In this document: positions 17,978-44,017 of the stretch, one piece after another
How positions within the stretch are numbered: the first letter of the stretch is position 1
How the letters are laid out: every line of letters begins with the position of its first letter
From: Buxus sempervirens
Lineage: Eukaryota > Streptophyta > Magnoliopsida > Buxales > Buxaceae
Direction of reading: 5' to 3'
DNA length: 64,000 bases
Assembly (NCBI GenBank): GCA_947561395.2
Contig: OX387187.1
Span: 27,199,829-27,263,828, forward strand
Made by a program: the position numbers and the translations under genes
The notes under the pieces: model-generated
The model's database searches: none
The model's input: the letters and a program-made list of their open reading frames with translations, nothing else
What the model was told of the DNA's origin: nothing

Positions 17978-20124
17978 ATACATGTGAGCCTTAGTGTATC
18001 CGGTACCATGCACCGGATACCTTAAGGCCCTTTATTATCCGGTCTGATATACCGGATACCTTAAGTTTGCTCAAAATTAGGGTTTTCCGAGAGCTTTTCA
18101 CTTTTACCATCATGTCCCTCATTAAATGAGGGGAAATCGCGGAAATGACCTTAGGGTTAAGGTTGGAGGGGTTCTAGACATTAAGTTGTGTCTACCAATG
18201 ACCTTAGCCTTTGCCTATAAATAGGAGCCTCCTCCTTGAGCAAATGGCACACAACTCTTGTTTTGAATTCTCGCAAAGAAGAACTCCAAGAGAAGAAGAA
18301 AACCGCTGTGGAATCGCCTCCAGAACTCAGGTAAGCCTCAACTTTTCTTTTTATTTTCTGTCTTTACATTCCTAGATCTAGATCTCTTCTTCTACCTTTC
18401 TGTAGTGTAAAGCCTTGTTTGTATGTGTGGAAATCCTTCCCCGGCTCAAAGTATCTCAAGACTCCCCTAGCCGTAAAACGTGAAGGCGGATCTAGGAGAA
18501 ACGAGACTGGGGATTGACCCTAGTGCTAGAACCAATGTAGCATAAGGCCTTTTTGATTGATTGAAAACCGTTCCATAATCAAAGTACCCTTGATTATTTC
18601 GAAGATCCGTGTTTAACGGGGAGAGAGAACAGAGGGAAACGGTAATGGAACGGAACCCTAGGCTGTCTTAGAACCCTATTTGGATGAATATGTATGCATG
18701 CTATTGATCTTGTTTGGTTTTTTTACACTTGCACATACATATCACTATTTTGGCGGGATAGGCTCGTATTTGGGGTTTATTGCATTTATTGTGATAAATC
18801 TCAAATAAATTGCCTCAATCAATTCTGGAATGTCTTTTGGATGATTTTAAGGTATTTGTGTTCATCTTGCACGAATCACACATTTTTATCAATTTTCGGA
18901 TTTGGTTTTTCTTCAAAAGTGGCTTAACTTGACAGCACCTGTACCCTTACTTCGGACGTCCATAACTTCATCATCCGGATGAATTTTAGGGTGATTCTAG
19001 AACCATGGGAAAGGTGAGGCTGTCTAGTTTATATCCACCAAATTTCATGAATTTCTATCTAGCGGATGTTTGACACCTCTCTGTCGAAGTTGAGTGGACA
19101 GTTCAGGTTCAAGTACAGAACTTGTCACTTCGACGGACCGCCATGTGTTCGTTTTAAGTCCGATTTGAGGGATTTTTATTTCTGAGTACTCCTTTATGAG
19201 TCTATTTTCAAATCCAGTTGGTTTCATAATTTTTGGATTCCATTAGAATTATTGGTAGCCGATTTACTCAGAACTGTTCATTTGTACTTTTCTGGGTAAA
19301 TCTGTGATCTTCGGGGCCTGTTCGGGAGACCACCCAAGGCACATCCGAAGGGATTTTTGTATGAGGCTAGTTTTTTTTTGAAAGATGGCCATACAAACTT
19401 CAATCACACCAAATTTCGTGGACTTTTATGTTGTGGATTTTTCTAGACAATTTTTCAAAGTTGCCCACTTACCACTTTTAAAAATCCCCAGCAGCAACTT
19501 CAAAGGAGCATAACTCCTAGATTTTTCATCGGAATGAAGTGAAATTTTGCATGAGACCCTTATTTACTATAATCTTTCAAATGGATTTGGTTTGATTTGA
19601 TTTAAAATTGTATTTGAATGATTTCAAGACAAATGGCATACTTTTTACCAAACTTCCCGGATTTGATTTAACTTGGTTTTGATCAACTTGTGCTTTGATT
19701 TCCACCTCTCTAATGTTCCAGAAATGATATTGACATAAGAGGAGAACCCAAAATTCATTTGGATTCTCATGTGAAGATATCATACATTTGACCTTTTTCA
19801 AGATTTCTCATGATTTTTAGCAAGCTTTCTTACTTTATTTTTGCATGAACATACACTTGGCAACCACTTCGTGTGGATGAATGGGGGTGCCTAACACCTT
19901 CCCCCGTTCATAATCTAATCCCCTTACCCATCTCTGGATTTGATTTTCAAGTAGGGTTATTTTTATCCTAGAATTTGTCTTTTGGCTATTTTTGCCTACT
20001 TTTGAATCTTTGGTGTCCATTCTCACCCCAAAATCATGAATGGTGGCAACTCTCCCATTTTTGCGTTGAGCCCGTGTGCTGACGGAGGGACGATCACTCC
20101 GGTGATTTTATCCCATGTCTCACA
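17978..20124 (+). repeat. 5' LTR of the Tat element (5'-truncated)
   Basis: It matches 41872-44017 almost base for base and ends at CTCACA (20124). It starts inside the second palindrome of the array, so the first two palindromes and the TGTAGACACC terminus present in the 3' copy are missing. It retains palindromes at 17996-18020 and 18035-18059, and a TATA box at 18215-18224. Confidence 0.93.
18215..18224 (+). promoter_or_regulatory. TATA box of the 5' LTR promoter
   Basis: CTATAAATAG lies in the middle of the LTR, about 155 bp downstream of the last palindrome. The same box is at 42109-42118 in the 3' LTR. It should start the genomic gag-pol transcript. Confidence 0.75.
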
Positions 20125-20126
20125 AC

Positions 20127-20144
20127 TGGCGACTCTGCTGGGGA
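20127..20144 (+). promoter_or_regulatory. Primer-binding site
   Basis: TGGCGACTCTGCTGGGGA begins two bases after the LTR end. Its TGGCGA start is complementary to a tRNA 3' end of type TCGCCA. PBSs of this wording are typical of Tat/Ogre elements, where the primer has been described as an arginine tRNA; the tRNA identity here is from memory. Confidence 0.85.
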
Positions 20145-21505: not shown

Positions 21506-21647
21506 ATAACCGGTAACTCAGGCCGGTTAATAACAACTCTGTTCATATCCGGTATATATTTCCGGATACAAAGGCATATGCGTATATCCGGTTATGGTGA
21601 CCGGATACAATAAGGCATATTCTTATCCGGAATATTATACCCGATAC
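21506..21647. promoter_or_regulatory. Palindrome array in the leader (four 25-bp units, 39-bp period)
   Basis: Units occupy 21506-21530, 21545-21569, 21584-21608 and 21623-21647. Each has the form (A/G/T)TATCCGG(T/A), 7-base spacer, then the inverse half-site. The first is degenerate (ATAACCGGT...). The start-to-start spacing is exactly 39 bp three times over. The motif is the same as in the LTR and upstream of both antisense genes. Confidence 0.9.
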
Positions 21648-21960
21648 GTTCAAAAATGCACAAATTGGCTTCTCAGCCTAAATTTTCAGAATAAAATGCC
21701 TAAAACACTGTGGATAATCCTTAGGCACCCCGAAAAAGACATAAGAAATGTTCCCAAAATACAAAATCAAAGAAAAAAAAACAAAAAAAGAATAAAATAA
21801 AATATTCTTTCAGGATTTAACCTAAGTTTGAAAATCAAAGAGGAAACCAAGGTGTCATATTTTTTGACACCAACTCAACTCAAACATGTGTTAGTCAAAC
21901 TTTTGAACTTGAAAACTGAGAAAATTCAGCAAATTTGAAAAAAAATAAAAAATAAAAAAA

Positions 21961-23173
21961 ACCTTTGGTTGGTTATTTTTATCAATCAAATCAAAACATT
22001 TGTGGGATACTTGGAAGCCCTAGAATATTCCAAGACACCTTTGGTTGGTTATTTTTATCAATCAAATCAAAACATTTGTGGGATACTTGGAAGCCCTAGA
22101 ATATTCCAAGACACCTTTGGTTGGTTATTTTTATCAATCAAATCAAAACTTTTGTGGGACACTTGGAAGCCCTAGAATATTCCATGAAAACCTTGGTTGG
22201 TTATTTCTATCAATCAAATCAAAACTTTTGTGGGATACTCGGAAGCCCTAGAATATTCCAAGAAACCTTTGGTTGGTTATTTTTATCAATCAAATCAAAA
22301 CATTTGTGGGACACTCGGAAGCCCTAGAATATTCCAAGAAACCTTTGGTTGGTTATTTTTATCAATCAAATCAAAACATTTGTGGGACACTTGGAAGCCC
22401 TACAATATTCCAAGAAACCTTTGGTTGGTTATTTTTATCAATCAAATCAAAACATTTGTGGGACACTTGGAAGCCCTAGAATATTCCAAGAAACCTTTGG
22501 TTGGTTATTTTTATCAATCGAATCAAAACATTTGTGCGACACTTGGAAGCCCTAGAATATTCCAAGAAACCTTTGGTTGGTTATTTTTATCGATCAAATC
22601 AAAACATTTGTGGGACACTTGGAAGCCCTAGAATATTCCAAGAAACCTTTGGTTGGTTATTTTTATCAATCAAATCAAAACATGTGTGGGACGCTTGAAA
22701 GCCCTAGAATATTCCAAGGAACCTTTGGTTGGTTATTTTTATCAATCAAATCAAAAAAAAGTGGGACACTTGGAAGCCCTAGAATATTCCATGAAAACCT
22801 TGGTTGGTTATTTCTATCAATCAAACAAAAAAAAGTGAGACCTCTGGAAGCCCTAGAATATTCCATGAAAACCTTAGTTGGTTATTTTTATCAATCAAAT
22901 CAAAAAAAAAAAGTGGGACCTTTGGAAGCCCTAGAATATTCCATGAAAACCTTGGTTGGTTATTTTTATTAATCAAATCAAAACATTTGTGGGATACTTG
23001 GAAGCCCTAGAATATTCCAAGACACCTTTGGTTGGTTATTTTTATCAATCAAATCAAAAAAAAAAATTTGGGACCCTTGGAAGCCCTAGAATATTCCATG
23101 AAAACCTTGGTTGGTTATTTTTATCAATCAAATCAAAAAATTTTGGGACCCTTGGAGGCCCTAGAATATTCCA
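21961..23173 (+). repeat. 76-bp tandem satellite in the retrotransposon leader (about 16 copies)
   Basis: Sixteen units of about 76 bp, starting ttggttggttatttttatca, then aatcaaaacatttgtggg and ttggaagccctagaatattc. Unit starts fall at 21969, 22045, 22121 and so on in steps of 76. The first eleven copies are nearly uniform. The last five or so contain A-runs replacing catttgtg. Because 76 is not a multiple of three, every frame stays open across many units, which explains the many short frames here. It lies between the PBS and gag. Confidence 0.95.
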
Positions 23174-23316
23174 ACACAAAATCAAAACAACAAAAAAAAA
23201 ATTCCAACAAAAAAAAAAACAAAAACAAAAAAAAATAAAATAAAAATAAAAATAAATCTGGATTGGTGTTCACCTAACCTACTGGTTTACATGTATAGGG
23301 GTGTGACTCAAGTTAA

Positions 23317-24546
23317 ATGGAAGCTAACATGTTCTATTCATTTTTTCCTCAGGTACACTTACTTTCAACCCAGGTGCACTTATTTGCAGTCATTGCTCCC
23401 GTGACCAGATCCAAAGCAAGAGCCATGAATACTGAAGAAAACCAAGCCCAAGCTACTGTCCCCGCTCAGGACTTTACTCAGCTGCAGGAGCAAGTGGCCG
23501 GTCTGGCCAAAATGCTGGGAGACTTACTGGCGGCTCAGGCCCAAGCCCAAAATCAGGCGTCGACTTCTCATCCGGCACCGCCACCTCAGGCCTATATTCC
23601 GCCTCCGGCTCAGCCCATGCCTGAGCCCATTTCTGAACCAGTCCCTGAGCCCATTCTGATCAGGGAAAATACAGTGGAGTCTGAGAAAGAGCTGGAAAAA
23701 GAAAAGGCCCGAGATGAGATGGAAAAGAAAATGCTGCTCAGGATAGAGAGGATCCAGGCAGAGCTGAAGGAAGTAAAGGGGGGAGGCAGCCAGGCAGGCA
23801 CCACCTTCGAGGACCTGTGCATGTACCCGGACGTCTGTCTACCGGCTAAGTTCAGGTGCCCAGACTTCGATAAATTTGATGGCACGGGCTGCCCATTGAG
23901 CCATCTCAAATTATACTGCGGGGCCCTGTGCCAGTTTGGCCGGGACGATGGAATACTGATCCAGCTCTTCCAGAGGAGTCTGACCGGGTCAGCCCTTCGG
24001 TGGTTCGCTACAGTGGACCATGGAAGGATTAGAAGGTGGAAGGACTTGGCCGATGCTTTCTTGGACCAGTACAAGTTCAACTCGGAGATCGTGCCGGACC
24101 GGTACGACATGATGAGGATGACCAAGGGGAAAGATGAACCGGTACGGCAGTACGCCAAGAGATGGAGAGAGGCCGCCTCCCAGGTCAGGCCACCTATGCA
24201 AGAGCCGGAGATGATCTCCACATTTATGGGCACACTGGGGCAGCCCTTTTACAACCATCTGGTGGGTCAGATCACCACCAACTTTGCAGCCCTAGTGCAG
24301 GTGGCGGACCGGATAGAGGAAGGGGTCAGGTCAGGAAGGCTGATAGACTACTCTACTCTGACTGGGCAGTCTGATTCCTCTGCCTCCATGGCCCAGAAGA
24401 AAGGGGCCAGATTTAAAAAGACAGGGGCCCGAAAGGAAGGGGAGGTGAACCTAGTCCAGGCTCCTCCAGCCAAGAAGCCACTTCACGTCAACATCTCGGC
24501 ACCCCAATGGCCCAGCAGGCCCAGCAGTCGTACCAGGCCCCGCTGA
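23317..24546 (+). pseudogene. Retrotransposon Gag N-terminal part (broken)
   Basis: The reading frame starts in a P/E/K-rich N-terminus (PPPAQPMPEPISEPVPEP) and a charged helix (KELEKEKARDEMEKKMLLRI). The Retrotrans_gag core follows (PAKFRCPDFDKFDGTG, GSALRWFATVDHGRIRRWKD, QYAKRWREAASQVRPP). The natural start is probably the ATG near 23425 (MNTEENQAQATV) or earlier. The frame ends at 24546, while the rest of Gag continues in another frame from before 24507, so a frameshift lies in the overlap. Gag forms the virus-like particle that packages the RNA. Confidence 0.9.
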
Positions 24547-26789
24547 ATGTCAACTTCCCTCCCTCTGTGCCAGCTAACACAAGGAGGACTTTTTCTAAGG
24601 AGGAGCGGGATGCGTGGTTCGCAACAAGGAAGAACCGAGTCTTCACTCCTCTCCCAATATCGCTGTCCCAACTACTGCCAACCCTGCTAAAAGGGGAATA
24701 CTTGACTCTGAAGGAGCCTAACCCAAATGCTTCGAAGGGGAGAAATTTTGACACATCGGTCACCTGTGATTTCCACATGGGTGCACCGGGGCATTCTACT
24801 GATAACTGCTGGGTATTGAAGCATGCAGTCCAGGATTTGTTGGACCAGAAGGCCTTGGTGTTCAACACTCCTACACCGGCCCCGTCCGGGAATGATATTG
24901 GGCAGAACCCTCTGCCATACCACAATGGGGCAGGTCCATCCAACTCCATCACTGCCATATCCACCACGAGAAGCGCCTTTGACCCATCTCAGCTTATAGC
25001 ACCTGTGGGGACTACAGTCCAGGTCCGATTTTTCCCAGAAGAGGAAGAAGAGGAGATCAACATGGTCTCCCAAAAAAATAATAATCTTGCTGCTGAGGAC
25101 ATAAGTTCCTCTCTAAACCGGGTCTCTTCACTCATGGCCCAGATGAATACTGCAAGACCCCCATTGGTCTTCAATTGCAGTCCACCCACTTATTCCCCAT
25201 CCAAGCCGTCTAAGGCTCCACTGGTCATCAATCTTGACCCCACCACTGCTTCCATCACTTCTTCTGTCCCCACCAAATCCAAACTTCAACCCTTGGTTGT
25301 AAATGTGCAGCCAGCCCATACTATCCCTAAACCGGCCCATACATCCCGGTCCAAACTCCAGCCACTAGTGGTTAACATCCCTAAATTAGCCTATTCTGAG
25401 GCCGCTGTACCATGGAATTACAGCGAGGGAATCACGGCTACGGTTCCAGTGGTTAGGAACCCGAACCAGGAGGAGGTGAACCTCATGACGAGGTCGGGGA
25501 GATGCGCAGGGGGTGAAGAGAAGGAGAAAGAGACAGAAGTAGAGAAAGAAAAAAAAGAAAATGAAGAAAAAAGAAAACAAAAAGGAAAAAATAAAGTAGG
25601 AGAAGACACCCCCCAGGGTGCAGAAAATGAGGCAGCCGACCTCATAAAAATCATAAAGAAAAGTGAATTTAATCTTGTGGATCAGCTAAACAAGGTCCCG
25701 ACCCAGATTTCAATACTGGGCCTTTTGCTGAATTCTGAAAAGCATAGGGATGCATTGTTAAGGGTGCTACAGAGTGCACATGTATCCCAGACCATCGATC
25801 CAGACCAGCTTGGCAAAATGGTTGGTCAAATCTTGTCACGTAATGTGATAAGTTTCTCAGAGGGTGAGATCAGCCCAAGTAGGTGTTATCATGTTGACCC
25901 TTTGCACATCACTGTGCTTTGTAAGGGCTGCATGGTTGCACGGGTTTTAATTGACAACGGGTCGGCGTTAAACGTCTGCCCGTTAATCACTTTTACCAAG
26001 CTGGGTCTGGACCAGTCAAGGATCAAACAAAATGGGCGGATAGTTAGGGCTTTCGATAGCTCCAAGACCCACTCCCTAGGGGAGATTGAACTGCCGGTCA
26101 CAATTGGGCCGAATATCTTTAACATCACATTTGAAGTGATGGATATACCCGCAGCTTTCAATCTGCTCCTAGGAAGGCCGTGGATACACTCAGCTAGGGC
26201 AATACCATCCACGCTCCACCAAAGGGTGAAATATATAAGAGGGCAAAGGGTGATAACAGTCCTAGCCGAAAACTTGGTGCCGCCCATCGTGTCACCTGAT
26301 GTACCCTTGATCAATGTGGACCTAACTGTCGACAAGATTGCATTCCACTCATTTCAATTTGAGGCGGTCAATTACATACCTGGGGGGTGTGAGAAAAAGA
26401 AGGAAAAGGGGACCACTGCGGAAAAAATGGTCAAGAAAGTGATGGAGAAATACCACTTTCACCCAGGGAAAGGCCTGGGGATCAATCTGCAGGGGATGGT
26501 GGAGCCAATCACGGCTAAGAAACTGATCCCCAAGGTAGGGTTGGGCTTCAAGCCCAGAGGCTGGAGAAGAATGAAACAAGAAGAAGGGGAGAGCAGAAGC
26601 AAAGGAAAACTCCCGCATCTGAGGGTAAACTTTCCAAAACCCTCCTATATAATCCAAATTTCTCCTCCATTGGACCAGTCCAAGCCTCCATACAGAAACA
26701 TTAACCCATTCCAAAAGCCTTTTGTTTCGGCCCTACAACCCTATAACCCATATCCAATACTGGGAGCAGTGGATGGGCCTTTGCCATGA
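24507..26789 (+). pseudogene. Gag C-terminus, zinc-knuckle-like motif, aspartic protease and G-patch-like segment
   Basis: A 760-codon frame continues Gag after the frameshift. CDFHMGAPGHSTDNCWVLKH (about 24764-24823) is the zinc-binding motif usual for Tat Gag. A highly charged K/E-rich stretch follows at about 25500-25610. The protease region has LIDNGSALNVCP (about 25948-25983; DNGS is the Tat-type form of the DTG/DSG catalytic triad) and LLLGRPWIHSARAIPS. A glycine-rich segment HFHPGKGLGINLQG with VGLGFKPR resembles a G-patch. The frame itself is uninterrupted; its link to Gag upstream and Pol downstream is broken. Confidence 0.88.
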
Positions 26790-27070
26790 CTGAGGGCGAA
26801 AAGACAGGGGCAGACATGGAACTGCCATTCATTGATTGGGCCGCAATAAAGATTCCGGATGAGGTTATATCTGGACTGGGCCCCGTAGCAGAAAACGGCA
26901 GTACCCACCCGGTGATGATGGCATCGGATGCTGGGTTTGAAGAGCAGGCTTTCCCTATTTCCCCTGCTCCCCAAAATTTTGTACTGAACAATTGGGAGGA
27001 AACTCCCCTTACCTTTGAAGCAGCGTCTGTGTGGCAAACTGACGCGGCTTCCAAAAAAAAACTCCAATAG
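26786..27070 (+). pseudogene. Pol N-terminal linker frame
   Basis: An open frame overlaps the protease frame by four bases and runs to 27070 (MELPFIDWAAIKIPDEVI). It precedes a frame change near the A-run at about 27052-27060, after which the coding sequence continues in another frame. Ogre-type elements splice an intron between protease and RT, so part of this stretch could be intronic; I cannot decide. Confidence 0.5.
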
Positions 27071-30000
27071 TGGAATGCCATTTCCCTGAAGGTTCTAATG
27101 GGCCTTCGTCTTCGGGGGAATTATGTTTAGAAGGCCCACAAAAAACCCAAAAAGATTTTTCTATTTTTTCTAAAAAATTTAAATTTTTCAAAAAGGTCCA
27201 AACCACTTATGAACCATATAATCAGACCGAATTGGACCAGGTTGAATATGACTTCGACCTTGAGCTCGACTTTGACCTCATGGGGGTCGAAGAAGAGACC
27301 GAGGTCGAAGAAGAAGACGTTCCAAAAGAAATTGAATACCAATTGGAACGTCATGAAAAGGGGGTCCAACCTAATATTGAGGAGACCATATCCATAAACC
27401 TTGGGACCAAAGATGACCCAAAAATTGTGAAAATCGGGTCATGCTTGTCTGATGTGCAGAAAAATGAAATGTCACAGTTCTTGGCAGATTACAAGGATGT
27501 GTTTGCTTGGTCGTATCAGGACATGCCAGGGTTGGACACTGACATGGTGGTGCACAAGTTGCCAATTTTGCCAGGGGTTAAGTCGATTAAGCAGAAGCTG
27601 AGAAGATTGAAGCCTGAATGGACCTTGAAGGTCAAGGACGAAGTGGTCAAACAATTTCAAGCCGGATTTTTGGCAGTCTCTACGTACCCTGAGTGGCTCG
27701 CAAACATAGTGCCGGTACCAAAGAAGAACGGGAAGGTCTGAATGTGCGTGGATTATAGAGACTTAAACAGGGCAAGCCCAAAGGACGATTTTCCGTTCCA
27801 CACATCGACATTCTGGTCGATAATACTGCGGTACATAGCCTATTCTCTTTCATGGATGGTTTCTCGGGATATAATCAGATCAAGATGGCTAAAGAAGATC
27901 AAGAGAAAACAGCATTTATCACACCTTGGGGCACATTCCACTACACAGTCATGCCATTTGGGCTTAAAAACGCTGGGGCAACATACCAGCGGGCCATGAC
28001 TGCACTATTTCATGACATGATCCATAAGGAGATGGAGGTCTACGTGGATGATATGATTGCCAAATCATGCAAAGAGGAGGACCACTTGATCAATCTGAAG
28101 AAAGTGTTTGATCGGCTCAGGAAGTACAGTCTATGGCTTAACCCGGCTAAATGCGTCTTTGGGGCTACATCAGGGAAATTACTGGGGTTTATAGTGAGCC
28201 GAAGAGGAATTGAAATTGACCCGGCTAAAGCCAAGGCCATAATTGAAATGCCAGCACCCAGAACGGAGAAGGAGGTCAGGGGTTTTCTCGGAAGGATTCA
28301 GTACATAAGCCGGTTCATAGCACAGCTCACTGCTATCTGTGAACCAATTTTCAAACTTTTGAGGAAAGATAACCCTACGGTCTGGAATGAGGACTGCCAG
28401 CAGGCATTTGACACAATAAAGAGGTATTTGCTGAACCCACCTGTGCTAGTGCCACCAACTCCAGGAAGACCGCTGATCCTGTACTTTTCAGTGTTGGAAA
28501 CGTCGATGGGATGTGTCTTGGGGCAACATGATGAGATTGGTAGAAAAGAAAGGGCAATTTACTATCTGAGTAAAAAATTCACAGAATATGAAGCCAAATA
28601 CTCACCATTGGAGAAGACTTGCTGTGCTCTAGTGTGGGCCACTCAGAGGCTAAGGCATTATTTCCTTAGTCACTCCACACTATTGATATCCCGGATGGAC
28701 CCGCTGAAATATTTATTTGAGAAACCGGCACTGACTGGCAGGACGGCAAAGTGGCAACTGCTACTGTCCGAATTTGATCTCACATACATCACCCAGAAGG
28801 CGATCAAGGGTCAAGCCATAGCTGATCACCTGGCTGCACATCCTCTGCCAGAATATCAACCCTTGAAGACCAACTTCCCAGATGAGGCAATCCTGTACAC
28901 TGAAGAGGAGGACAGTGAGAGTTCTTGGCAGATGTTCTTCGATGGGGCCGCCAACATGAATGGGAACGGAATAGGGGCAGTCTTGGTTAAACCAGATGGT
29001 TCACACATCCCGATTGCAGTAAAGTTGAGATTCCAGTGCACCAATAACATAGCAGAATATGAGGCATGCATAATTGGATTGCAAGCAGCCATGGATCATG
29101 GAGTAGAGGAACTTGACGTATACGGGGATTCGAGTCTTATCATCTTCCAAACAACTGGTGAGTGGAAAACCAAGGATCACAAATTGATCCCCTATCACCA
29201 GTATTTGGAAGAAATAAGCACAAATTTCACTCGAATTTCCTTCAACTATATGCCAAGGGCCAAGAATCAGTTTGCGGATGCTCTAGCAACCTTGGCTTCA
29301 ATGGTCAGCATACCAGAAGGAGTAGACATCAGACCGCTGGAAATTGAGGTTAGAGATGAACCGGCTTACTGTCTCGTTCTAGAGGGAGCACCAGAAGAAG
29401 AAACACCATGGTTTCAAGATATCAAAAATTTCTTGAACAATCGGAGTTTGCCAGAAAATGCCACTGCTACGGAGAAGAGGACAATACAGAGATTGGCTGG
29501 TCAATTTCTGCTAAGTGGTGGACATGTGTACAAGAGGTCACATAACGACATTCTGCTAAGATGTGTTGCCAAGGCTGAATCGGAAAGGCTGATTGAGACT
29601 GTACATGGAGGAGTCTGTGGGCCCCATATGAGTGGGCACATGCTGGCTAAGAAGATCCTGAGGCTGGGATACTACTGGACAACCATGGAGCATGATTGCT
29701 GTATACATGTCAGGAGGTGCCACCAATGCCAGATATATGCAGATAACAAGCATGCACCCCCAGGTGAGCTGCACAACATGACATCACCCTGGCCCTTCTC
29801 TATGTGGGGCATAGATGTTATTGGCATGATCTCACCTAAGGCATCGAACGGACACAGATTCATCCTGGTGGCGATTGACTATTTCACTAAGTGGGTAGAA
29901 GCAGCTTCATATGCGAATATCACAAGCAACCATGTTATTAAATTTTTGAAGCACAATATCATTTGTCGCTATGGACTGCCAAGTGCCATAGTATCAGACA

Positions 30001-30656
30001 ATGCTTCAAATATTAAGAACAAGGACATGAAGAAAATGTGTGAGCAGTTTCAGATCACCCACCATAAGTCAGCTCCGTACAGGCCAAAGATGAATGGGGC
30101 AGTAGAAGCAGCCAACAAGAATATAAAGAAAATCATTCAGAAGATGGTAGTAAGTTACAAAGATTGGCATGAAATGCTGCCACTTGCTCTACATGCCTAT
30201 AGAACCTCGATCCGGACTTCAACTGGGGCAACCCCGTACTCCCTAGCCTATGGGATGGAAGCAGTCTTGCCCGTGGAAGTGGAGATCCCATCACTCCGAG
30301 TGCTCATGGAAGCAGAACTAGAAGAAGCCGAATGGGTCCAATCAAGACATGATCAACTTAACCTGATAGAAGAAAAACGGTTGAAAGCACTTTGCCATGG
30401 ACAGTTGTACCAGAAGAGAATGGCCCAGGCTTACAATAAGAAAGTGAGGCCCAGAACTTTCCAAGAAGGAAACTTAGTGCTAAAGAAAATTCTACCATTT
30501 TTGGAAGACCCTCGTGGTAAGTTCAAGCCCAATTGGGAAGGCCCATATGTCGTCAAGAAAGTCCTATCAGGGGGTGCACTCATCTTAGCAGAAATGGATG
30601 GGGCAGATTTTCCTGAGCCCATTAACTCTGATGCAGTAAAAAGGTATTTTCCTTGA
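27070..30656 (+). pseudogene. Pol: reverse transcriptase, double RNase H, integrase (broken)
   Basis: 27070-27741 holds the acidic linker and RT N-terminus (DVFAWSYQDMPGLD, PEWLANIVPVPKKNGKV) and ends at TGA 27739-27741. RT resumes directly (CVDYRDLNRASPKDDFPF), then shifts frame near 27800. The frame from 27852 runs unbroken to TGA at 30654. It contains the RT catalytic YVDDM (28041-28055), the RT-linked RNase H (TSMGCVLGQHDE, 28500 region), and a second RNase H with D-E-D-D residues in FFDGAANMNG, NIAEYEA, YGDSSL and FADALATL (28930-29300). It also contains an HHCC integrase finger (RRCHQCQ near 29720) and the integrase core, with Asp in GIDVIG, Asp in VSDNASN (29997) and Glu in AVEAAN (30105), spaced D-35-E. 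The C-terminal part resembles a GPY-type module. Catalytic residues are all present, but at least one stop and one frameshift prevent a full polyprotein. Confidence 0.92.
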
Positions 30657-31621: not shown

Positions 31622-33347
31622 CTAGTCTCCTAGCTGCTCCTCAAGTTCCCGAATCCGAGCTGCCTGAGCTGCAATGACTCCTGAAGCCCCCTCTGCAGCG
31701 GGATCACTCAGGAAGGAAATGACCTCATCTGAAAGGGCCTGCTTAATCCTCATACTCCTAAGGCTGGCCAAAGTAGCCTGGTACTTCTGCCGAATCATAC
31801 GGACCTCGAAGCAACGGGCCTGCCTCTGCTCCTCCAGCTTCTCTTCCACGGCAATACGGCGTGAGATCTGCTCCTCAAGCTGCCTCTCCAGATAAGCGCC
31901 TTGTATCCTGAGCTCTTGGGCCTCCCGCACCCATATCTGCTGAAGCCGCTTATGAGAAGCCCGCTCAAACTCTAGAATGTCCTCATAAGTAGGAACCAAG
32001 ACTACAGGAGGATCTTCGGGTACCGGGGCCTGAGTCTGTATCTGTTCCTTGATCCAGAAGAGATAATCCTTCACATGGGCTTCTGAAAAGACTGGACCAT
32101 GCATGAAGCGGACATAGGACCACTCCTTCATCAACCAGGCATTCAGCTTCATAGAAAGGGGCCCAAGACGATCCTCATATCCACATGGGATGATAATCCC
32201 CTGGGTCGCACGGAACTGATGAAGGACCTGCAGAGGAAGATAAAGCACTGCATGCCTCAGGCCAGCCAGAATCAGAAAGTTGCGGTCTCGGAAGCTAATC
32301 ACTGTCTCCGCATTAGGCTGATAAGTACCAGGCCATCTCACCTGGTCATCCTGAAGCGAGCCCAAGAAAGTGAACCAGCCCTGTTTGCCCCCTCGAATAT
32401 CGGGGCACCCCATGTTGCTCATTAAGAGAGGGACTTTTAGACTCGGGAAGAAGTGTCGATTGATCTCGTCAATCTGGCTCAAATGATCAAGTAGCCAAAG
32501 CTGCAAAGGAAGAGAGATATGTCAGCACATTGTAAGAAAAAAAAAAAAAAGAGCAAAAAGGGCAAAAAGAAAGCCAAAAAGCAAGAAAAAAAAATAAAAA
32601 AAAAAGAAATAAAAAAAAAGAAAAAAGAAATTTTTTTACCTGCAGGATCTGGGCACATGCTAGGAAGCGTTTTGACTTCCTGTTGTAGCAGTCAGTCAAA
32701 GCTTGATACATCCCAGCCAAAATCATAGGGGCCAACCTCTCCCGCTCCCTAACCTGGCATATCACGGAAATCAAGGCCAAGTCCACCTCATCATCATCCC
32801 GTGGGAAAAGCAACTGGTTGACCACTATCAGGGTCAACGCATTGAATCGGGCCTCCTTATCTTCCCCCCTCAAAAGCTTCTCAGTCAAAAAGGCCTTAGA
32901 TAGGGTCAAAAGGGTGTCAGAATCCCCCAAGTCCTTCTTCCCTATGCCCAAGAATGTAGAAGCTTCCTTTTTGTAACTGGGCCTAAGAGGTGGATTTACC
33001 ACCTTCTCATCAAACCTCAAGCCCAGGATGGTTTCCACCTCCTCAATGGTTGGGGTCATCTCATGGGTCCCAAAACGAAACAAGTTGAGATCAGGAACCC
33101 AATGACCAATCATGGCCTCTATAATCTCCCACCTGAAGGGAACCTTGGGAATAAGCAGGATGTGGCCTAGATTAGTAGTACCCCATCTCCTCTCCTCATC
33201 TAGGGTCATAGAGTTAACCCACCTTGTGTAAAAAGAATCCACAGGGTTGTACCTAGTGAGATTTGGGGGTTTTGATCTAAAAGGTTGTTTTGTAGGGGAG
33301 GCAGTGTGGACAGATAGTAATGGGGCAGAAAATGATCCGGATTCCAT
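31622..33347 (-). CDS. Antisense DUF7745-type protein gene of the Tat element (two exons)
   Basis: On the minus strand, exon 1 is 33347-32640 (236 codons) and exon 2 is 32500-31622 (292 codons plus stop), joined by a phase-0 intron (CTGCAG|GT ... TTTGCAG). The product is 528 residues with no internal stop. The ATG at 33347 (MESGSFSAP) is chosen as the first after the TATA box at 33456-33466. Exon 1 has the DUF7745 signature as I know it from plant retrotransposon-derived proteins: VDSFYTRWVNSMTL, RWGTTNLGHILLIPK, TPTIEEVETILGLRFDEK. The C-terminal third is a predicted coiled coil (AYLERQLEEQISRRIAVEEK). Function is unknown. The intact two-exon gene contrasts with the broken gag-pol. The palindrome array at 33477-33618 lies just upstream. 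Confidence 0.82.
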
Positions 33348-33455
33348 TGGATGTGATGGGAGCAAGCTAGAACTCAAGAGGAAGAAGAAAAAGGCGAAAA
33401 AGGGGGTTTCTAAACTCAAAAACTCGTAAAAAATGCTGAAATCCCCAGGCTGGTT

Positions 33456-33466
33456 GCATTTATAGC
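33456..33466 (-). promoter_or_regulatory. TATA box of the antisense DUF7745 gene
   Basis: Read on the minus strand, GCTATAAATGC lies 109 bp upstream of the ATG and only 10 bp from the palindrome array. This array-TATA-gene order supports an independent antisense promoter. Confidence 0.65.
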
Positions 33467-33476
33467 ATATTTTAAC

Positions 33477-33618
33477 GTATCCGGTAACTCAGACCGGATA
33501 CAAAAGGCTTTATCAATATCCGGATAAGTATACTGGATACGAAAGAGGCTACGAGTATCCGGTATGTTATACCGGATACAAGGACCAATCAATGTATCCG
33601 GTATGTCAGACCGGATAC
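33477..33618. promoter_or_regulatory. Palindrome array upstream of the DUF7745 gene (four 25-bp units, 39-bp period)
   Basis: Units occupy 33477-33501, 33516-33540, 33555-33579 and 33594-33618, again exactly 39 bp apart. Three of the four have half-sites GTATCCGGT and ACCGGATAC around spacers aactcag, atgttat and atgtcag. The second has ATATCCGGA/ACTGGATAC. Confidence 0.95.
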
Positions 33619-33819
33619 AAAGAAAAACAGCAAAAAAATGAGCTAAGGATGAAAAATCCGAATTTTTTACCTGTTTTACCTGTGTACAAGTCATAATTGC
33701 ATAAATTTAAAAACAAAAGATGTGCAAGACAGGAGAGAATGAATCAAAGTTTTTTTCATATATATATGCAAGTTTTTGTACAATGATAATAGAAAAGACA
33801 TAAAATTCCTAATCTACTG

Positions 33820-36598
33820 CTACTGTGCAGGATCATCCACACGGCCTCGGCCACGTCCACCTCTACGGCCCCTCCCTCGAAGCGCTCTGCCCCTAGAGTA
33901 GGCAAGAATACGCTCGGCTGCATGGCGAGGATGCTGACCCACCACCTGCTGGAGCTGATACTCCAGGCAATACTCCTCGGTGTCCGGGGGCAGAGCAGGA
34001 GTGGAATCGGGGGAGGAAGCCTCTGGCTCAACAGCAACCGGCCCAGCTAGGACCTCATCCATAGCAGGCCCTGCTCCCGCAGCTCCAGAAGGCCCGGCAG
34101 CAGAAGAAGGGCCAGGAGCAGAAACATCTGGATCAACAGGAAAAAAATCAGAAATGAAAGCATCAGAATAAACCAAAGAGGAAAAATTAAAGAAAGCATA
34201 CCAGGTATATCTACAGCAGGCACTAGGGGATCCAGATCCACTGGGTCAGCAGCAGGGACCTCCTCCGGGTCATGAACCATCACTGGAACAGCCAGGGCAT
34301 CCGTAGGAGCAACTGGGGCATCAGTAGGCGGAGCATCACCAGGATCAGCAGCTGGGACGTCCACAGGATCAGTAGCCCGAGCAGGAGATGGGTCAGGAAT
34401 GAAGAAATCATGCTCAAACAAGGCATCCTGATCATGGGCTGGGCCCTGCACGAGTCAAACAAGCATATCAGAATAGCAGAAACAGGAAAATGAAAGAAAT
34501 AAAAATATGAGAAGGCCAGATACCTGTCTAGCCTGAAGCTCAGCAACTAGGGACTCCAGCTCCCTGATCTGGGCATCCCGCTGGGCCATGACCGCATCGT
34601 GCTCAGCGATCATATCATCGATCGTAGCCCGCTGGCTCTCGAACCGGTCCCGAATGGAGTTCAGCTCGTGTACCTGCCAACAAGAACAGAAGCATGGTCA
34701 GAAATGCATAAGGAAGGAAAAGAGGATAAAAAGGGGAAGAGTAAAAGGCTTACCGTGTCCTCATGGATCCGGATACGGATCCCGCCAATCTCTGTCACCC
34801 CGGCACGAGTGGGTCGATCCATCAAGCATCCGATAGATACTCCCTGGAACCACTCGTCATAATCTCCGGCTACTGTGAGCCCCTCTGCATCCAGGAAATG
34901 ATCGAACTGATCCACGTCGAAGCCAGGAAGGAGAGTATCGGGACCCACAGCAGGAGGAGGGACGGGGATGCGAAGTGCGCCAGTGTGCTGGAAGTACAGG
35001 CGCTCTCCCAAGTACATCACCCTACCAAGCCTCCCAAGGAAGCACTGGTAGGGCTGACGTCGGAGATCTCTCTCAAAAGCATCCTGTACTGCCATCTCAC
35101 GGGCAACTCCGACATCCACGTCATCTGGACGGGATAGAATGAGCTGCAAAGAAGCAAAGTGGTCAGATACAGTCAAGAGACAGGAAAGGAAATAAAAGAA
35201 AAAAAATAGAGGACTTACATTAGATCGGCGGGCACGGTCTAAGTGCACCCGGGCAGTACGAGGCTGACTCCTATCAGCATCCCGGACCTGGGCCGACCAT
35301 CGCAAAGCCACTGGAAAATCTGTGACCTCAGGTACCGGGGAGGGGCGGAAGAAAGTCATGTAAGTGTACATGAACACCTAGCAAAAGAAAAACCAGTCAG
35401 GAAAAGATAAAGCCTAAAAAAAATTAAACCAGACACGGGAAGTTCAATACCTGTAAAATCTGCCAGAAGAACCGACTGCTGACGCCGTCGCCTCTCGGAG
35501 ATGCCAGACCTCGAACTGCCGGGCACAGCCCGGCCAAGATGGTTCCATAGATCAGCCGACCCCATGCTAGCTGGCGGGTCTGATGGAAATCTCTCAAGGC
35601 GTCCAAAAAGAGCGGACTGACACCGGTAGTATCCTCCGGGAAGAAGCAGCTCCCCAACATCAGCAGGAATACATGTCGGAAGATCGGCGCAAAGGCTGCA
35701 TCCTCCACAGAGACGGTCTCGTGCCTCCTCTCAAAATGACGAGCCAGACTCTCCCGCAGCCAGCTAATGGAGAGCCGGCCACTCCGCCCATCCCAGGCAA
35801 CAGGTGGCAAGGCCTGATATCCCAAGAGAAGGCCGATATCCTCCGCAGAAGGCCGCTCCAAGACAATGGTCCGCCCCGTCAGAGGAATGCCAGTAATCAT
35901 CACAAAATCGGAGGGGCGGATCCCCAGCTCCACGTCCGGCAGATGGAACGACTGAGTCTCTGGGAAATACCTCTCCATCATGGCAAATATAAGTGGACGA
36001 TCAACTCTGAAGGATGGGATGCTAAGAAAGTGGTCCAGATGACATCTCCCAAACTCCCGCCTGAGTGCCGGGGAAAGCGACTGAGCTAACTCACTGAATC
36101 TCCCCCAGCTACCTCGCAGATGAGAGGAATGATAAGGAAGCGGCACATCCGCCCTGATGCACATGGAAGGGTCGCTACCCAAGCCATGGAGGAGCTCTGT
36201 ATCATGCACAGAGGCCCTCAACTCCTCAGGAACTCATGCAAGGGCTACAGCAACCCCCTCCTGAGCCGTATCTCTGGCTCTGCCTCGGCCTCTACCACGG
36301 CCTCTCTCGCCCTCAAGGGCCTGATCCTGAACCCGGCCTCTGCCTCTGCCTCGACCCCGAGCCGGTGCAACCACGGGCTAAAATTCAAGAGAAAGGTGTG
36401 AAGGTTGTGTGGGAAAGGAGAATGGAAGAACGAAAGAAAGGAAAAATTTTGAAAACCTACCTCGGCAGAACTCTCCCTGGAGACATCTAATGGCTCAGAC
36501 AAGGTGGCGCTGGAGCTCGCCTCTGTCCGAGCCCGCGAGCTGGAAGGCTGATCAGCTGGGTCAGCCTCCTCTCTAACCCGAGAACGACTCCTAGCCAT
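33820..36598 (-). pseudogene. Antisense plant mobile domain (PMD) protein gene, seven exons, one internal stop
   Basis: Minus-strand exons are 36598-36461, 36377-35451, 35377-35219, 35143-34754, 34673-34524, 34445-34202 and 34127-33820, all with GT-AG introns and consistent phase, totalling 771 codons plus the final stop. Exon 2 starts with an RG-rich tract (RGRGRGRVQD). It then has the PMD (PF10536, aminotransferase-like plant mobile domain) pattern: RREFGRCHLDHFLSIPSF, RYFPETQSFHLPDVELGIRP, DFVMITGIPLTGR, WLRESLARHFERRHE, and HVFLLMLGSCFFPEDTTGV. Exon 5 is coiled-coil-like, exon 6 is an acidic P/A/D repeat, and exon 7 ends in another RG-rich tract (RALRGRGRRGGRGRGRVDD). The only lesion seen is a TGA at 36236-36234 between the RG tract and the PMD. 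PMD proteins include host MAIN/MAIL1, which act in transposon silencing, and many transposon-borne relatives. Calling it a pseudogene rests on that single codon. Confidence 0.85.
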
Positions 36599-36889
36599 CT
36601 ACAACAGGGAAGTATCCTATGAATTTCAGTACAAATTTATCTAAAATCCTACTTTGCTTTTAATCTGGATTTAGTTCAAATTTATCAGAAATTTCACCTT
36701 GCTTTAGGTTCCAACTCTAGTTCATCAGGAATCTTATTTTCAGGAATTGTGGTTCGGTTCAAAGTCTTTTAGAAAATATTTCTATGTTTTTCACAAGGCC
36801 TAATATCTGATAATTTATTACAGGATTGCTACAGTGGTGCAAAAGCAAATGGTCTGAGCTAAATCAAGGATCGGAATAAACTGAGGAGT
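36599..36889 (-). other. Intron remnant upstream of the PMD coding exons
   Basis: A splice acceptor (tgttgtag on the minus strand) ends immediately at the PMD ATG at 36598. This implies a non-coding first exon further upstream. The stretch up to the solo LTR is AT-rich and non-coding. Confidence 0.5.
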
Positions 36890-39800: not shown

Positions 39801-39907
39801 GCACCTGATCAAAAAGTCAACTTTTTGAGCCCTTCAGGTTTGACTTTTTCAATTAGGGTTTTATTCTTTCATTTTTGGGGGTGCAAAAATGAGGTGCTGA
39901 CACCCAG
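36890..39907 (-). mobile_element. Solo LTR (3.0 kb) with CCCAG target duplication, nested in the Tat element
   Basis: The LTR runs 36895-39902, begins TGTGCG and ends GCTGACA on the plus strand, and is flanked by CCCAG at 36890-36894 and 39903-39907. Read on the minus strand it starts TGTCAGCACCTCATTTTTGC, a wording usual for large gypsy LTRs, and has a TATA-like box (cctataaaaag) at about 38977-38986. Its ends and much of its sequence match the second solo LTR at 56706-60330 (gcagacac..gggtgcct, gtccg..gacaccc, gcaaaaatgaggtgct). There is no internal region, so it is the product of LTR-LTR recombination. It sits in the inferred first intron of the antisense PMD gene. Confidence 0.88.
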
Positions 39908-40736
39908 AACCAACCACAGATTGGTCCTAGCAGTCAAAGCACCAAAATCAGTTCAATGAGGAACAGGTCGTATCATAGCATCTGGAAAAATTTCTCTTCT
40001 ACCAGTGAAAATCCTAAGTTATCAGATATGGTCAAATGTATCATTCTAAAAGGAGGGCTACTATTAGTCGGGCAATTCAGTCAAAAATTGCTATTGTCAG
40101 AAAATCCTTGGGTCTTGGCAAAGATACCAATTGCTCGATAACAGCAGGCAATCAACTCCAAAACACAAGTGGAAAACTTGCTTTGAAAATATCAAAGGGA
40201 TAAAGCCAAATGTGGTCTAGAGCAAGTCAGGGGTAGATCATGTCAGGTGGAGCATCACTTTAAGTTAGGAATTAGAGCATGGGTGAAAACAAACCATATC
40301 ATTCAGAGCATGTTAAAATCAGGAGATAAGCAATTCAGTCCATCACTGGCAAGCAATTCCAATCAGTACAAGTAAAAGTCAGGGCATCACAAGGAAAAAT
40401 TGAAGCATTGCAATTCGTACAAGGCAGTTGCAAGATTCGATGACCAACACCAAGCTCTAACTTAGCAAAAAAAAAAAAAAATTTAGGAATCCAGGCAATT
40501 GGCAGCAATTCAGAATTGGCAGAAATTCAAGCAATCGGCAATTTACCACAATCAAGAGAAATCCAAGGCATAGCTATTCGGAATCAAGGCTTGATAGCCA
40601 AGGCAATAACACAGCAAGCATTCGGCTTCTAACATTAAAGGAATCCATACAATAAGCATGCATGCTCGCCCAATGTTTACAATATTTGAAACAGCAAATT
40701 AAAAGGAGAAGAATGCATGCTAAGATGCTCACTGAC
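39908..40736 (-). other. Intron part of the antisense PMD transcript (inferred)
   Basis: No coding frame with a recognisable domain. On the minus strand it follows a splice donor at 40736-40735 and leads to the acceptor at 36600-36599, interrupted by the solo LTR. Confidence 0.4.
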
Positions 40737-41010
40737 CTGGTCGGATTGAGTCGGGTTGGAGAAGAACAGGCGAATGGACAAGAAAGCCAAAAGAAAATCG
40801 AGCTAGGGCTCGACTGCTGCTTTGAATGATCGAACAAGGAAGGTCGCCGGAGTTGCAGACTGTCGCCAGTAACAATGTGAGCCACTGGAGCTCAGGGAAT
40901 CGCCGGAGAAGAAGGGAGCAACCGTCGGGTGAAGAAGAAGAAGGAGATGGCCGGTCTGAGTAATCGGAGCAAGAAGAAAAAAAATGAAAAGTCGCGGTCG
41001 CGCGCGACTT
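40737..41010 (-). promoter_or_regulatory. Putative 5' untranslated first exon of the antisense PMD gene
   Basis: On the minus strand this GC-richer, C/T-rich stretch (ctccggcgattccctgagct, tcttctccaacccgactc) looks like a plant 5' UTR. It ends in a strong donor context, GACCAG|GTCAGTGAG, at 40737/40736. Spliced to the acceptor at 36599 it would deliver the ATG at 36598 as the first coding codon. The 5' limit is not fixed; the palindromes at 41024-41071 lie just upstream. A cDNA would decide this. Confidence 0.5.
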
Positions 41011-41023
41011 AAGTAAACCTGGA

Positions 41024-41071
41024 GGATCTGGATACTCAGGCCGGATACCCGCAGACCCTTGATTATCCGGA
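41024..41071. promoter_or_regulatory. Truncated palindrome array upstream of the PMD first exon
   Basis: One full unit (41024-41048, ggatctgga-tactcag-gccggatac) and the half-site of a second (41063-41071, ttatccgga) are again 39 bp apart. The array then gives way to an A/G-rich tract, suggesting that slippage or deletion removed the remaining units. Confidence 0.8.
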
Positions 41072-41075
41072 TATA

Positions 41076-41322: not shown

Positions 41323-41344
41323 TTGTGCTACAACTTCTATTTTC

Positions 41345-41571
41345 TCGAAATCCTATTTTTGTCTTGAAGTCCACCTCACAGCCACGAGAGCTCTGTGGAA
41401 TTTGGGACAACTTTGGGAAATGTGCCTGGTCAAAAGGGTGATATCCACTCAATTTTCAACTTGGTTTGATTAAAAATCAGTTTTTCAAAAATCCTATTTT
41501 TGGGCTTAAAATCCACTTCATAGCCACGAGGGCTCAGTGGAATTTAAGAACTCTTGGAGAGATGCCCCCTT
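41345..41571 (+). repeat. Two-copy 146-bp direct repeat before the 3' LTR
   Basis: The block aaatcctatttttgtcttga ... agccacgagagctctgtgga at about 41348-41403 recurs at about 41490-41545 with few changes. No coding content. Confidence 0.75.
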
Positions 41572-41706
41572 AAAGTGAGGGCTTTTTGGCAAATCTCCAC
41601 CCAAAAATTGTTTTCTACAGAAATTGAATTGAACCGAGCAAATCATGCTCAAGGGAATGCAATTTGGGTTTGTCTACTCTTTGCAGCTCACTGCTTCACA
41701 GCTCCC

Positions 41707-41721
41707 GCAAAGAGGGGTAGT
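41707..41721 (+). promoter_or_regulatory. Polypurine tract preceding the 3' LTR
   Basis: GCAAAGAGGGGTAG ends at the start of TTGTAGACACCCC. A G-rich purine run immediately before a TG-starting LTR is where plus-strand synthesis is primed. It supports placing the true 3' LTR start at about 41722, about 150 bp before the point where the truncated 5' LTR begins to match. Confidence 0.65.
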
Positions 41722-44017
41722 TGTAGACACCCCAAATTGCACAAACAATCAACAAAAACCATTATCTCCTGGAAAGCAAGCACAGAATTTGAAGAAAATA
41801 AACTTTTACCTGTATCCGGATACTCAATCCGGATACAAGTACTCCTTCCTGTATCCGGATACTCATACCGGATACATGTGAGCCTTAGTGTATCCGGTAC
41901 CATGCACCGGATACCTTAAGGCCCTTTATTATCCGGTCTGATATACCGGATACCTTAAGTTTGCTCAAAATTAGGGTTTTCCGAGAGCTTTTCACTTTTA
42001 CCATCATGTCCCTCATTAAATGAGGGGAAATCGCGGAAATGACCTTAGGGTTAAGGTTGGAGGGGTTCTAGACATTAATTTGTGTCTACCAATGACCTTA
42101 GCCTTTGCCTATAAATAGGAGCCTCCTCCTTGAGCAAATGGCACACAACTCTTGTTTTGAATTCTCGCAAAGAAGAACTCTAAGAAAAGAAGAAAACCGC
42201 TGTGGAATCGCCTCCAGAACTCAGGTAAGCCTCAACTTTTCTTTTTATTTTCTGTCTTTACATTCCTAGATCTAGATCTCTTCTTATACCTTTCTGTAGT
42301 GTAAAGCCTTGTTTGTATGTGTGGAAATCCTTCCCCGGCTCAAAGTATCTCAAGACTCCCCTAGCCGTAAAACGTGAAGGCGGATCTAGGAGAAACGAGA
42401 CTGGGGATTGACCCTAGTGCTAGAACCCATGTAGCATAAGGCCTTTTTGATTGATTGAAAACCGTTCCATAATCAAAGTACCCTTGATTATTTCGAAGAT
42501 CCGTGTTTAACGGGGAGAGAGAACAGAGGGAAACGGTAATGGAACGGAACCCTAGGCTGTCTTAGAACCCTATTTGGATGAATATGTATGCATGCTATTG
42601 ATCTTGTTTGGTTTTTTTACACTTGCACATACATATCACTATTTTGGCGGGATAGGCTCGTATTTGGGGTTTATTGCATTTATTGTGATAAATCTCAAAT
42701 AAATGGCCTCAATCAATTCTGGAATGTCTTTTGGATGATTTTAAGGTATTTGTGTTCATCTTGCACGAATCACACATTTTTATCAATTTTCGGATTTGGT
42801 TTTTCTTCAAAAGTGGCTTAACTTGACAGCACCTGTACCCTTACTTTGGACGCCCATAACTTCATCATCCGGATGAATTTTGGGGTGATTCCAGAACCAT
42901 GGGAAAGGTGAGGCTGTCTAGTTTATATCCACCAAATTTCATGAATTTCTATCTAGCGGATGTTTGACACCTCTCTGTCGAAGTTGAGTGGACAGTTCAG
43001 GTTCAAGTACAGAACTTGTCACTTCGACGGACCGCCATGTGTTCGTTTTAAGTCCGATTCGAGGGATTTTTATTTCTGAGTACTTCTTTATGAGTCTATT
43101 TTCAAATCCAATTGGTTTCATAATTTTTGGATTCCATTCGAATTATTGGTAGCCGATTTACTCAGAACTGTTCATTTGTACTTTTCTGGGTAAATCTGTG
43201 ATCTTCGGGGCCTGTTCGGGAGACCACCCAAGGCACATCCGAAGGGATTTTTGTATGAGGCTAGTCTCTTTTGAAAGATGGCCATACAAACTTCAATCAC
43301 ACCAAATTTCGTGGACTTTTATGTAGTGGATTTTTCTAGACAATTTTCCAAATTTTCCCACTTACCACTTTTAAAAATCCCCAGCAGCAACTTCAAAGGA
43401 GCATAACTCCTAGATTTTTCATCGGAATGAAGTGAAATTTTGCATGAGACCCTTATTTACTATAATCTTTCAAATGGATTTGGTTTGATTTGATTTAAAA
43501 TTGTATGTGAATGATTTCAAGACAAATGGCATACTTTTTACCAAACTTCCCGGATTTGATTTAACTTGGTTTTGATCAACTTGTGCTTTGATTTCCACCT
43601 CTCTAATGTTCCAGAAATGATATTGACATAAGAGGAGAACCCAAAATTCATTTGGATTCTCATGTGAAGATATCATACATTTGACCTTTTTCAAGATTTC
43701 TCATGATTTTTAGCAAGCTTTCTTACTTTATTTTTGCATGAACATACACTTGGCAACCACTTCGTGTGGATGAATGGGGGTGCCTAACACCTTCCCCCGT
43801 TCATAATCTAATCCCCTTACCCATCTCTGGATTTGATTTTCAAGTAGGGTTATTTTTATCCTAGAATTTGTCTTTTGGCTATTTTTGCCTACTTTTGAAT
43901 CTTTGGTGTCCATTCTCACCCCAAAATCATGAATGGTGGCGACTCTCCCATTTTTGCGTTGAGCCCGTGTGCTGACGGAGGGATGATCACTCCGGTGATT
44001 TTATCCCATGTCTCACA
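41722..44017 (+). repeat. 3' LTR of the Tat element (full length, about 2.3 kb)
   Basis: It starts TGTAGACACCCC after the polypurine tract and ends CTCACA at 44017, the same end as the 5' LTR. It carries the complete four-unit palindrome array at 41812-41953 and the TATA box at 42109-42118. Matching to the 5' copy starts at 41872. Confidence 0.85.
41812..41953. promoter_or_regulatory. Palindrome array in the 3' LTR (four 25-bp units, 39-bp period)
   Basis: Units occupy 41812-41836, 41851-41875, 41890-41914 and 41929-41953. Spacers are tactcaa, tactcat, accatgc and ctgatat between conserved TATCCGG and CCGGATAC halves. The array lies about 155 bp upstream of the TATA box, in U3. Confidence 0.95.

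Follow-up and report, generated by a model that had tools for sequence, protein, structure and literature searches.

What does a short, spaced palindrome do when it recurs at several places within one giant retrotransposon? The question is raised by a 64,000-nucleotide stretch of Buxus sempervirens DNA (contig OX387187.1, positions 27,199,829 to 27,263,828; called the window below), which holds a Ty3 long terminal repeat (LTR) retrotransposon with the Pfam domains Retrotrans_gag, RVT_1, RNase H and rve in that order, together with antisense genes matching DUF7745 and the plant mobile domain (PMD). Arrays of the palindrome GTATCCGGT-N7-ACCGGATAC lie in its LTRs, in its leader, at an antisense promoter and near the 3' LTR. 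We suggest that, on balance, they are probably operators beside promoters, bound by a family-specific dimeric protein; the likeliest candidate is the antisense product of the element itself, which would activate or un-silence its own promoters.

Palindromic arrays at fixed places in the element

With up to three mismatches allowed, GTATCCGGT-N7-ACCGGATAC matched the window 13 times (at 17996, 18035, 21545, 21584, 21623, 33477, 33516, 33555, 33594, 41812, 41851, 41890 and 41929) and gave no match in 100 shuffles. The units at 21506 and 41024 were degenerate but recognisable, retaining 13 and 14 of the 18 arm bases, respectively, and the one at 41063, of which the window copy keeps the left arm only, was whole at position 5071 of another copy, L040. 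An earlier reading of the window, made from its letters only (the sequence-only reading), had listed 16 units at an exact 39-bp period; its list stands for the 13 clear and the two degenerate units, the unit at 41063 being merely a half-unit here. The period was exact throughout the window and slightly looser elsewhere, with 39 bp in 123 of the 136 distinct two-unit stretches fetched, 38 bp in 12 and 40 bp in one.

The exact pattern occurred 5,920 times in the 676-Mb B. sempervirens assembly, and the pattern read backwards not once. When the two arms were sought at all gaps from 2 to 16, 5,937 matches were obtained, 5,920 of them at gap 7 and 17 at all the remaining gaps. The facing arms of neighbouring units were exactly 14 apart in 5,052 + 5,018 matches genome-wide, compared with 5,163 + 5,592 at any gap from 0 to 30, a count that includes nested double matches. 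In the copies examined, arrays occupied the same places, namely the LTR, the leader, the promoter of the antisense DUF7745/PMD-type gene and a site near the 3' LTR. Among the matches listed, which are the first places found and lie mostly on contig 1, seven elements could be deduced from their positions on that contig. Each has an LTR array, with the antisense array roughly +15 to +16 kb along and another LTR array roughly +20 to +21 kb along; for three of the seven, a leader array is listed as well, near +3.7 kb.

The exon of the antisense gene was used as query for a genome comparison in which the motif played no part. Of 5,856 candidates 147 were scored, and the 30 with the best protein match were taken as antisense loci (the window's own included; two carry an internal stop); four palindrome units stood beside the gene at 30 of 30. 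With few units at fixed positions in the element, the arrays are not a general satellite, the case that the sequence-only reading had named as its own refutation. In the 30 copies, non-major bases made up 32 of 1,920 in the half-sites (8 + 8 bases), 59 of 1,080 in the spacers and 112 of 1,249 in the linkers (Fisher tests, 2e-8 for half-site versus spacer and 1e-21 for half-site versus linker), as well as 815 of 8,518 in the upstream flank and 147 of 8,991 in the gene-side flank, which comprises the 5' untranslated region and the exon start. The half-sites are therefore as conserved as the gene-side flank, despite one CpG each, and the spacers and linkers drift, as had been claimed from the window alone. 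CpG decay, tried as a proxy for methylation (8 of 240 in half-sites versus 34 of 260 upstream), was not counted, because selection explains it equally well.

In 26 of the 30 copies, the distance from the last intact unit to the start of a TATA box of the antisense gene was 13 bp; it was 52 bp in two copies, and two had no such box. The longer distance equals 13 + 39, which decay of the last unit would produce. Taken together, the constraint, the gap-7 lock and the TATA proximity bear out a symmetric half-site beside promoters, as expected under selection by a dimeric factor that binds DNA cooperatively.

Negative autoregulation, too, would fit an array next to the TATA box of the antisense gene itself; the arrays might instead bind a repressor or insulator, encoded by the element or by the host, that balances antisense and sense transcription. 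Repressor and activator cannot be discriminated from sequence alone. Still, we consider this very improbable, since the arrays remain intact in thousands of copies of amplified families and autorepression by itself gives no reason for an array in the LTR.

Half-site classes and a shared core

LTRs of related families, about 72-93% identical to the window element where aligned, carried arrays with CCGGT, CCGGC or CCGAC half-sites. The symmetric CCGAC class, GTATCCGAC-N7-GTCGGATAC, had 4,335 genome matches. Mixed units with one arm of each class numbered 84 + 70, where the three counts would give about 5,080 if the arms varied independently. Around one CCGAC-class element (L057), nested copia sequence was present, and the six longest open reading frames (ORFs) scanned there included no antisense gene.

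Symmetry was assessed in 37 distinct arrays with 127 units, a sample that keeps 4 of the 30 near-identical antisense loci and leaves out the other 26. At position 8, neighbouring units agreed in 81 of 90 cases and the two arms within a unit in 112 of 127; permuting the right arms within arrays gave 110.0 (p 0.28). Since this permutation reproduces the observed agreement, the base at position 8 is set array-wide, as a trans-acting reader would predict. At position 9, within-unit symmetry (93) exceeded the value expected from the array (80.5, p 0.001), an excess of which fixed protein specificity alone gives no account.

Template switching in palindromes could maintain arm symmetry and fits position 9, and tandem repeats are frequent in Retand elements (PMC11963269); the arrays could thus be functionless products of a neutral tandem-repeat or palindrome-correction process. 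Such an origin does not explain why half-sites are constrained relative to spacers, linkers and upstream flank, or why families with units of different sequence beyond the core share similar places and identical core spacing. The arrays seen consist of few units, unlike long satellites, and we regard a purely neutral origin as quite improbable.

The sequence-only reading had asked whether the architecture is confined to this family, and it is not. A Pfam search for DUF7745 gave 118 scored matches of 5,751 candidates, and the upstream stretches of 20 hand-picked ones were examined, 12 chosen to span classes and eight from a list of 20, the 12 dropped being mostly longer-frame classes like those without arrays. 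At least two exact copies of CCG-N11-CGG, with half-sites unlike those of the window family, were present in 13 of the 20 promoters (15 with two decayed cases), a proportion that the hand-picking makes no estimate for the genome. The two taken as decayed arrays were L063, with one exact CCG-N11-CGG, and L080, with none. Across the 20 stretches, CCG-Nn-CGG was found 42 times at n = 11 and at most seven times at every other n from 3 to 24. The long-frame DUF7745 class (L058-L060) showed no palindrome array 150-800 bp upstream and instead a 12-bp TCTTTCATCTGC-like tandem repeat.

With the window family's sites as class A, four further classes were distinguished. Class B, CCGTA-N7-TACGG in 27-28 bp steps, was found in eight promoters and 11,213 + 11,242 times (forward + reverse) in the genome; class C, AACCG-N11-CGGTT in 28-bp steps with one 41-bp step, in five promoters including L063 and 2,932 + 2,916 times; class D, TAACCGAA-N7-TTCGGTTA in 38-39 bp steps, in one promoter and 1,298 times (the pattern is self-complementary); and class E, CCGCA-N7-TGCGG, in one promoter (L080) and 1,911 + 1,972 times, partly at the same sites as class C. 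No reversed control for classes B-E matched, apart from a single match on the reverse strand for class C. Several position sets among the class C matches listed echo the class A layout, for example 7812245, 7815960, 7826144, 7828398-7828515 and 7833564 on contig 1, and two DUF7745 matches (10600809 and 14559809) begin 307-309 bp from a class C array. In the contig 1 matches listed for this class (e.g. 7826144 and 14730883), an apparent extra array lies about 13.4-13.9 kb from the LTR array, for which no class A counterpart was noticed. In class B promoter arrays (L074, L077 and others), one unit reads CCGTG...CACGG in place of CCGTA...TACGG, symmetrically in several copies.

The CCG and CGG cores were 11 bp apart in every class. 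The next CCG/CGG pair followed after another 11 bp in the searched B, C and E patterns (period 28) and after about 22 bp in A and D (period about 39). Between the two periods lie 11 bp, roughly one helical turn, and this would be expected if neighbouring dimers share a face of the DNA.

Another possibility is that the palindromes form hairpins in the genomic RNA and serve there in packaging, in export or in the control of translation. Each of the seven units tested folds, at -12.7 kcal/mol for A and A' and between -4.2 and -10 for units of classes B, C and D, the arrays are internal to the element, between or in the LTRs, and position 9 shows some within-unit covariation. Loops tolerate changes of length, however, and the spacer is locked at 7 (17 exceptions in 5,937). 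Moreover, complementarity beyond composition reached p < 0.05 at two of 29 spacer and linker position pairs, with three deficits (p > 0.99); position 8 is fixed per array and not per unit; a TATA box adjoins the antisense array; and the class periods differ by about one turn of the DNA helix. An RNA role is thus improbable.

A stronger rival, though we think it rather unlikely, is that the arrays are enhancers read by a family of host transcription factors with CCG/CGG half-sites. In that case the element families would have drifted to different paralogues or flanking preferences. The LBD type was considered as one such host factor, and a literature search on it gave no usable lead. Promoter-proximal position and constraint suit any activator, and the CCG core common to all classes could mean one host protein fold. 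Yet five or six symmetric half-site classes, each with more than 1,000 matches, coexist in one genome, four of the non-A classes were seen at promoters of different DUF7745 genes, and a host factor offers no obvious cause for divergence family by family. Spacing-locked, symmetric divergence of the half-sites thus favours a family-specific protein over RNA hairpins, satellites or one host factor.

The element and its surroundings

Paired LTRs and an integrase after the reverse transcriptase (RT), as in Tat-lineage or Ogre-like Ty3 elements, are present in the window element (Table 1). A second RNase H lies between RT and integrase (RT_RNaseH 235-339 and RVT_3 394-512, in one ORF), which PMC9289625 names as a Tat feature, and the element appears Tat-like by this double RNase H. 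The two LTRs differ at 23 of 2,146 aligned sites. In another copy (L036), the LTR start is identical to that of the window 3' LTR and a 5-bp flanking repeat is present.

Table 1. Features of the retrotransposon, in window coordinates
Feature	Position	Strand	Remarks
5' LTR, truncated	17978..20124	+	keeps last two palindrome units, 17996 and 18035; direct repeat with 41872-44017, offset 23,894/23,893; GTCTCACA ends at 20124
Leader array, 4 units at 39 bp	21506..21647	no strand	first unit degenerate (ATAACCGG...CCGGTTAA); equivalent at 4213-4330 in copy L041
gag (Retrotrans_gag), G-patch ORF, RT-RNaseH-second RNase H-integrase ORFs	23317..30656	+ (sense)	from ORFs and Pfam
Antisense DUF7745/PMD gene, exon 1	32640..33347	-	begins with ATG at 33347; position of 3' end approximate; another ORF at 31622-32521
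TATAAATGC, probable TATA box of antisense DUF7745/PMD gene	33456..33464	-	12 bp from array
Antisense-promoter array, 4 units at 39 bp	33477..33618	no strand	
Second antisense gene, plant mobile domain	33756..36598	-	ORF 35424-36233, Pfam PMD 2.7e-13; ATG-led ORF from 36598; outer limits uncertain
Degenerate array near 3' LTR, one unit and one left arm	41024..41075	no strand	two-unit form at 5032/5071 in copy L040
3' LTR, 2.3 kb	41722..44017	+	TGTAGACACC...TCTCACA; TGTAGACACCCC at 41722 only; GTCTCACA ends at 44017
LTR array, 4 units at 39 bp	41812..41953	no strand	starts 90 bp inside LTR
TATAAATAG, possible LTR TATA box	42110..42118	+	156 bp past LTR array

The degenerate array had been placed upstream of the first exon of the PMD gene. 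This is plausible: about 4.4 kb separate it from the ATG-led PMD ORF in the window copy, and in L040, which is shorter, alignment puts the corresponding distance at about 1 kb. The window copy is about 3.4 kb longer than L040 in the stretch from the PMD gene to this array (window 36870-40832 against 4273-4843), and part of the extra stretch (39371-39902) resembles 3' regions of other families.

Window positions 21959-23174, between the leader array and gag, are filled by about 16 tandem copies of a 76-bp repeat, which is also found in L041. In L037 (1-4106), an array-bearing LTR sits inside the antisense gene of a related element, and beyond it the gene picks up again, overlapping by 5 bp as a target duplication would. 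Beyond the element, two ORFs upstream of it (3419-5371) span most of a cytochrome P450, and complex tandem arrays with periods of 18-148 occupy 59446-60268.

A candidate reader of the arrays

In the mechanism that we propose, each palindrome would be one dimer site made of two inverted half-sites, with CCG cores 14 bp apart centre to centre (CCG-N11-CGG), and several sites in register would allow cooperative binding of neighbouring dimers. Core and spacing are kept across the families seen, and the bases flanking CCG have changed symmetrically in both arms, largely array-wide. With such private flanking bases, the factor of each family would read mainly its own arrays. The most likely factor would be the element's own antisense DUF7745/PMD-type product; as its promoter carries an array, an autoregulatory loop may result, extending to the LTR promoter and the leader.

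An element-encoded reader of this kind is known from maize, where the TnpA protein of En/Spm binds repeated subterminal motifs near its own promoter and relieves methylation. En/Spm is a CACTA DNA transposon, unlike the LTR element here with its separate antisense genes. A second system is that of the Arabidopsis VANC proteins and the motif repeats of VANDAL (Mutator-like) transposons (Hosaka et al. 2017, PMC5735166; PMC10398659). There too, short tandem motifs lie in non-coding parts of the element and have diverged between related families, an element-encoded accessory protein reads the motif, and specificity for one family has been proposed. The B. sempervirens elements likewise repeat a family-specific short motif in their non-coding parts, in support of the VANC-like logic suggested by the sequence-only reading. 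VANDAL, however, is a DNA transposon with VANC, and in contrast to the VANC21 motif YAGTATTAY the B. sempervirens sites have symmetry and a locked spacing; PMC5735166 nowhere uses the word palindrome. A Ty3 LTR element with DUF7745/PMD antisense proteins is therefore not a VANC system, although it may work like one. By analogy with VANC (PMC5735166) and TnpA, we infer that the antisense product would activate or un-silence promoters rather than repress them.

Antisense accessory genes are known in plant LTR retrotransposons, namely Grande gene23, RIRE2 and Retand TRP28 (PMC7264820, PMC11963269). As in the window element, the gene lies between pol and the 3' LTR, in Grande with a promoter of its own, and TRP28 is a predicted DNA binder. 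The element here encodes DUF7745/PMD proteins instead, and neither palindromic operator arrays nor family-specific half-sites are described in the available text of these papers. A survey of plant LTR retrotransposons found PMD more often than any other extra domain (PMC9289625). The domain is shared with MAIN/MAIL1, whose targets have been tied to a promoter motif, a link which in the available text of PMC7156037 and PMC9899485 likewise falls short of direct binding. This DOWN motif of Arabidopsis PMD mutants was considered as a half-site and rejected, its MORC1 version, CATGCAGTTT, being unlike the half-sites here. Literature searches on DUF7745 and on the plant mobile domain with retrotransposon and palindromes found no paper, and no title on such arrays appeared among the related papers listed, subscription journals being mostly outside the scope.

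Exon 1 of the antisense gene matched DUF7745 (2.4e-18) and PMD (2.8e-13) in Pfam. When a single gene from each of classes A, B and C was compared, the exon 1 proteins were 79-85% identical, with 0.75-0.78 differences per synonymous site (pS, near saturation) and 0.09-0.15 per nonsynonymous site (pN). Given a protein conserved despite nearly saturated synonymous positions, strong purifying selection on the antisense gene is indicated. Among the 30 antisense loci, the ratio of nonsynonymous to synonymous substitution (dN/dS) was 0.066, a value biased low by the choice of best protein matches. A coiled coil was considered as support for a dimer and not used: on a crude heptad score, the ORF of the PMD gene was matched by 5 of 300 shuffles and that of the DUF7745 gene by 152 of 300.

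Besides the excess at position 9, several observations weigh against an operator read by the antisense protein. As the class A, B and C exons are 79-85% identical and their half-sites differ, specificity would have to lie in a few residues, in another part of the protein or in another protein. A sequence search of solved structures with exon 1 returned no match. The array was absent from five of the 20 DUF7745 promoters examined (L058-L062). No clean antisense promoter of the CCGAC class was found, the one examined (L070) mixing CCGGC, CCGGT and CCGAT arms, and CCGGC and CCGAC units were mixed in the LTR arrays L045 and L049-L051. No TATAWA was found within 400 bp of the leader array or the 41024 array, and among seven class B and C promoters tested, TATAWA lay within 120 bp in four, all of class B, and in none of the three of class C.

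Family-specific operator arrays remain the reading that we favour, and the arrays supply a concrete hypothesis for the role of antisense plant mobile domain and DUF7745 genes in LTR retrotransposons. More tentatively, the DUF7745/PMD retrotransposon superfamily may share a modular cis-trans code, with an invariant CCG-N11-CGG, family-private flanks and the element's own antisense protein as reader; this we hold possible, short of probable. Several natural half-site classes coexist in one genome, a matching antisense gene accompanies most of them, and together they are ready probes for specificity swaps. If the proposal is true, the plant mobile domain would have a direct DNA-binding role, and VANC specificity divergence would have a counterpart in LTR retrotransposons. 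Retrotransposons, like VANDAL DNA transposons, would then divide into families that read their own sites, which would help to explain how several giant families were amplified together in one genome.

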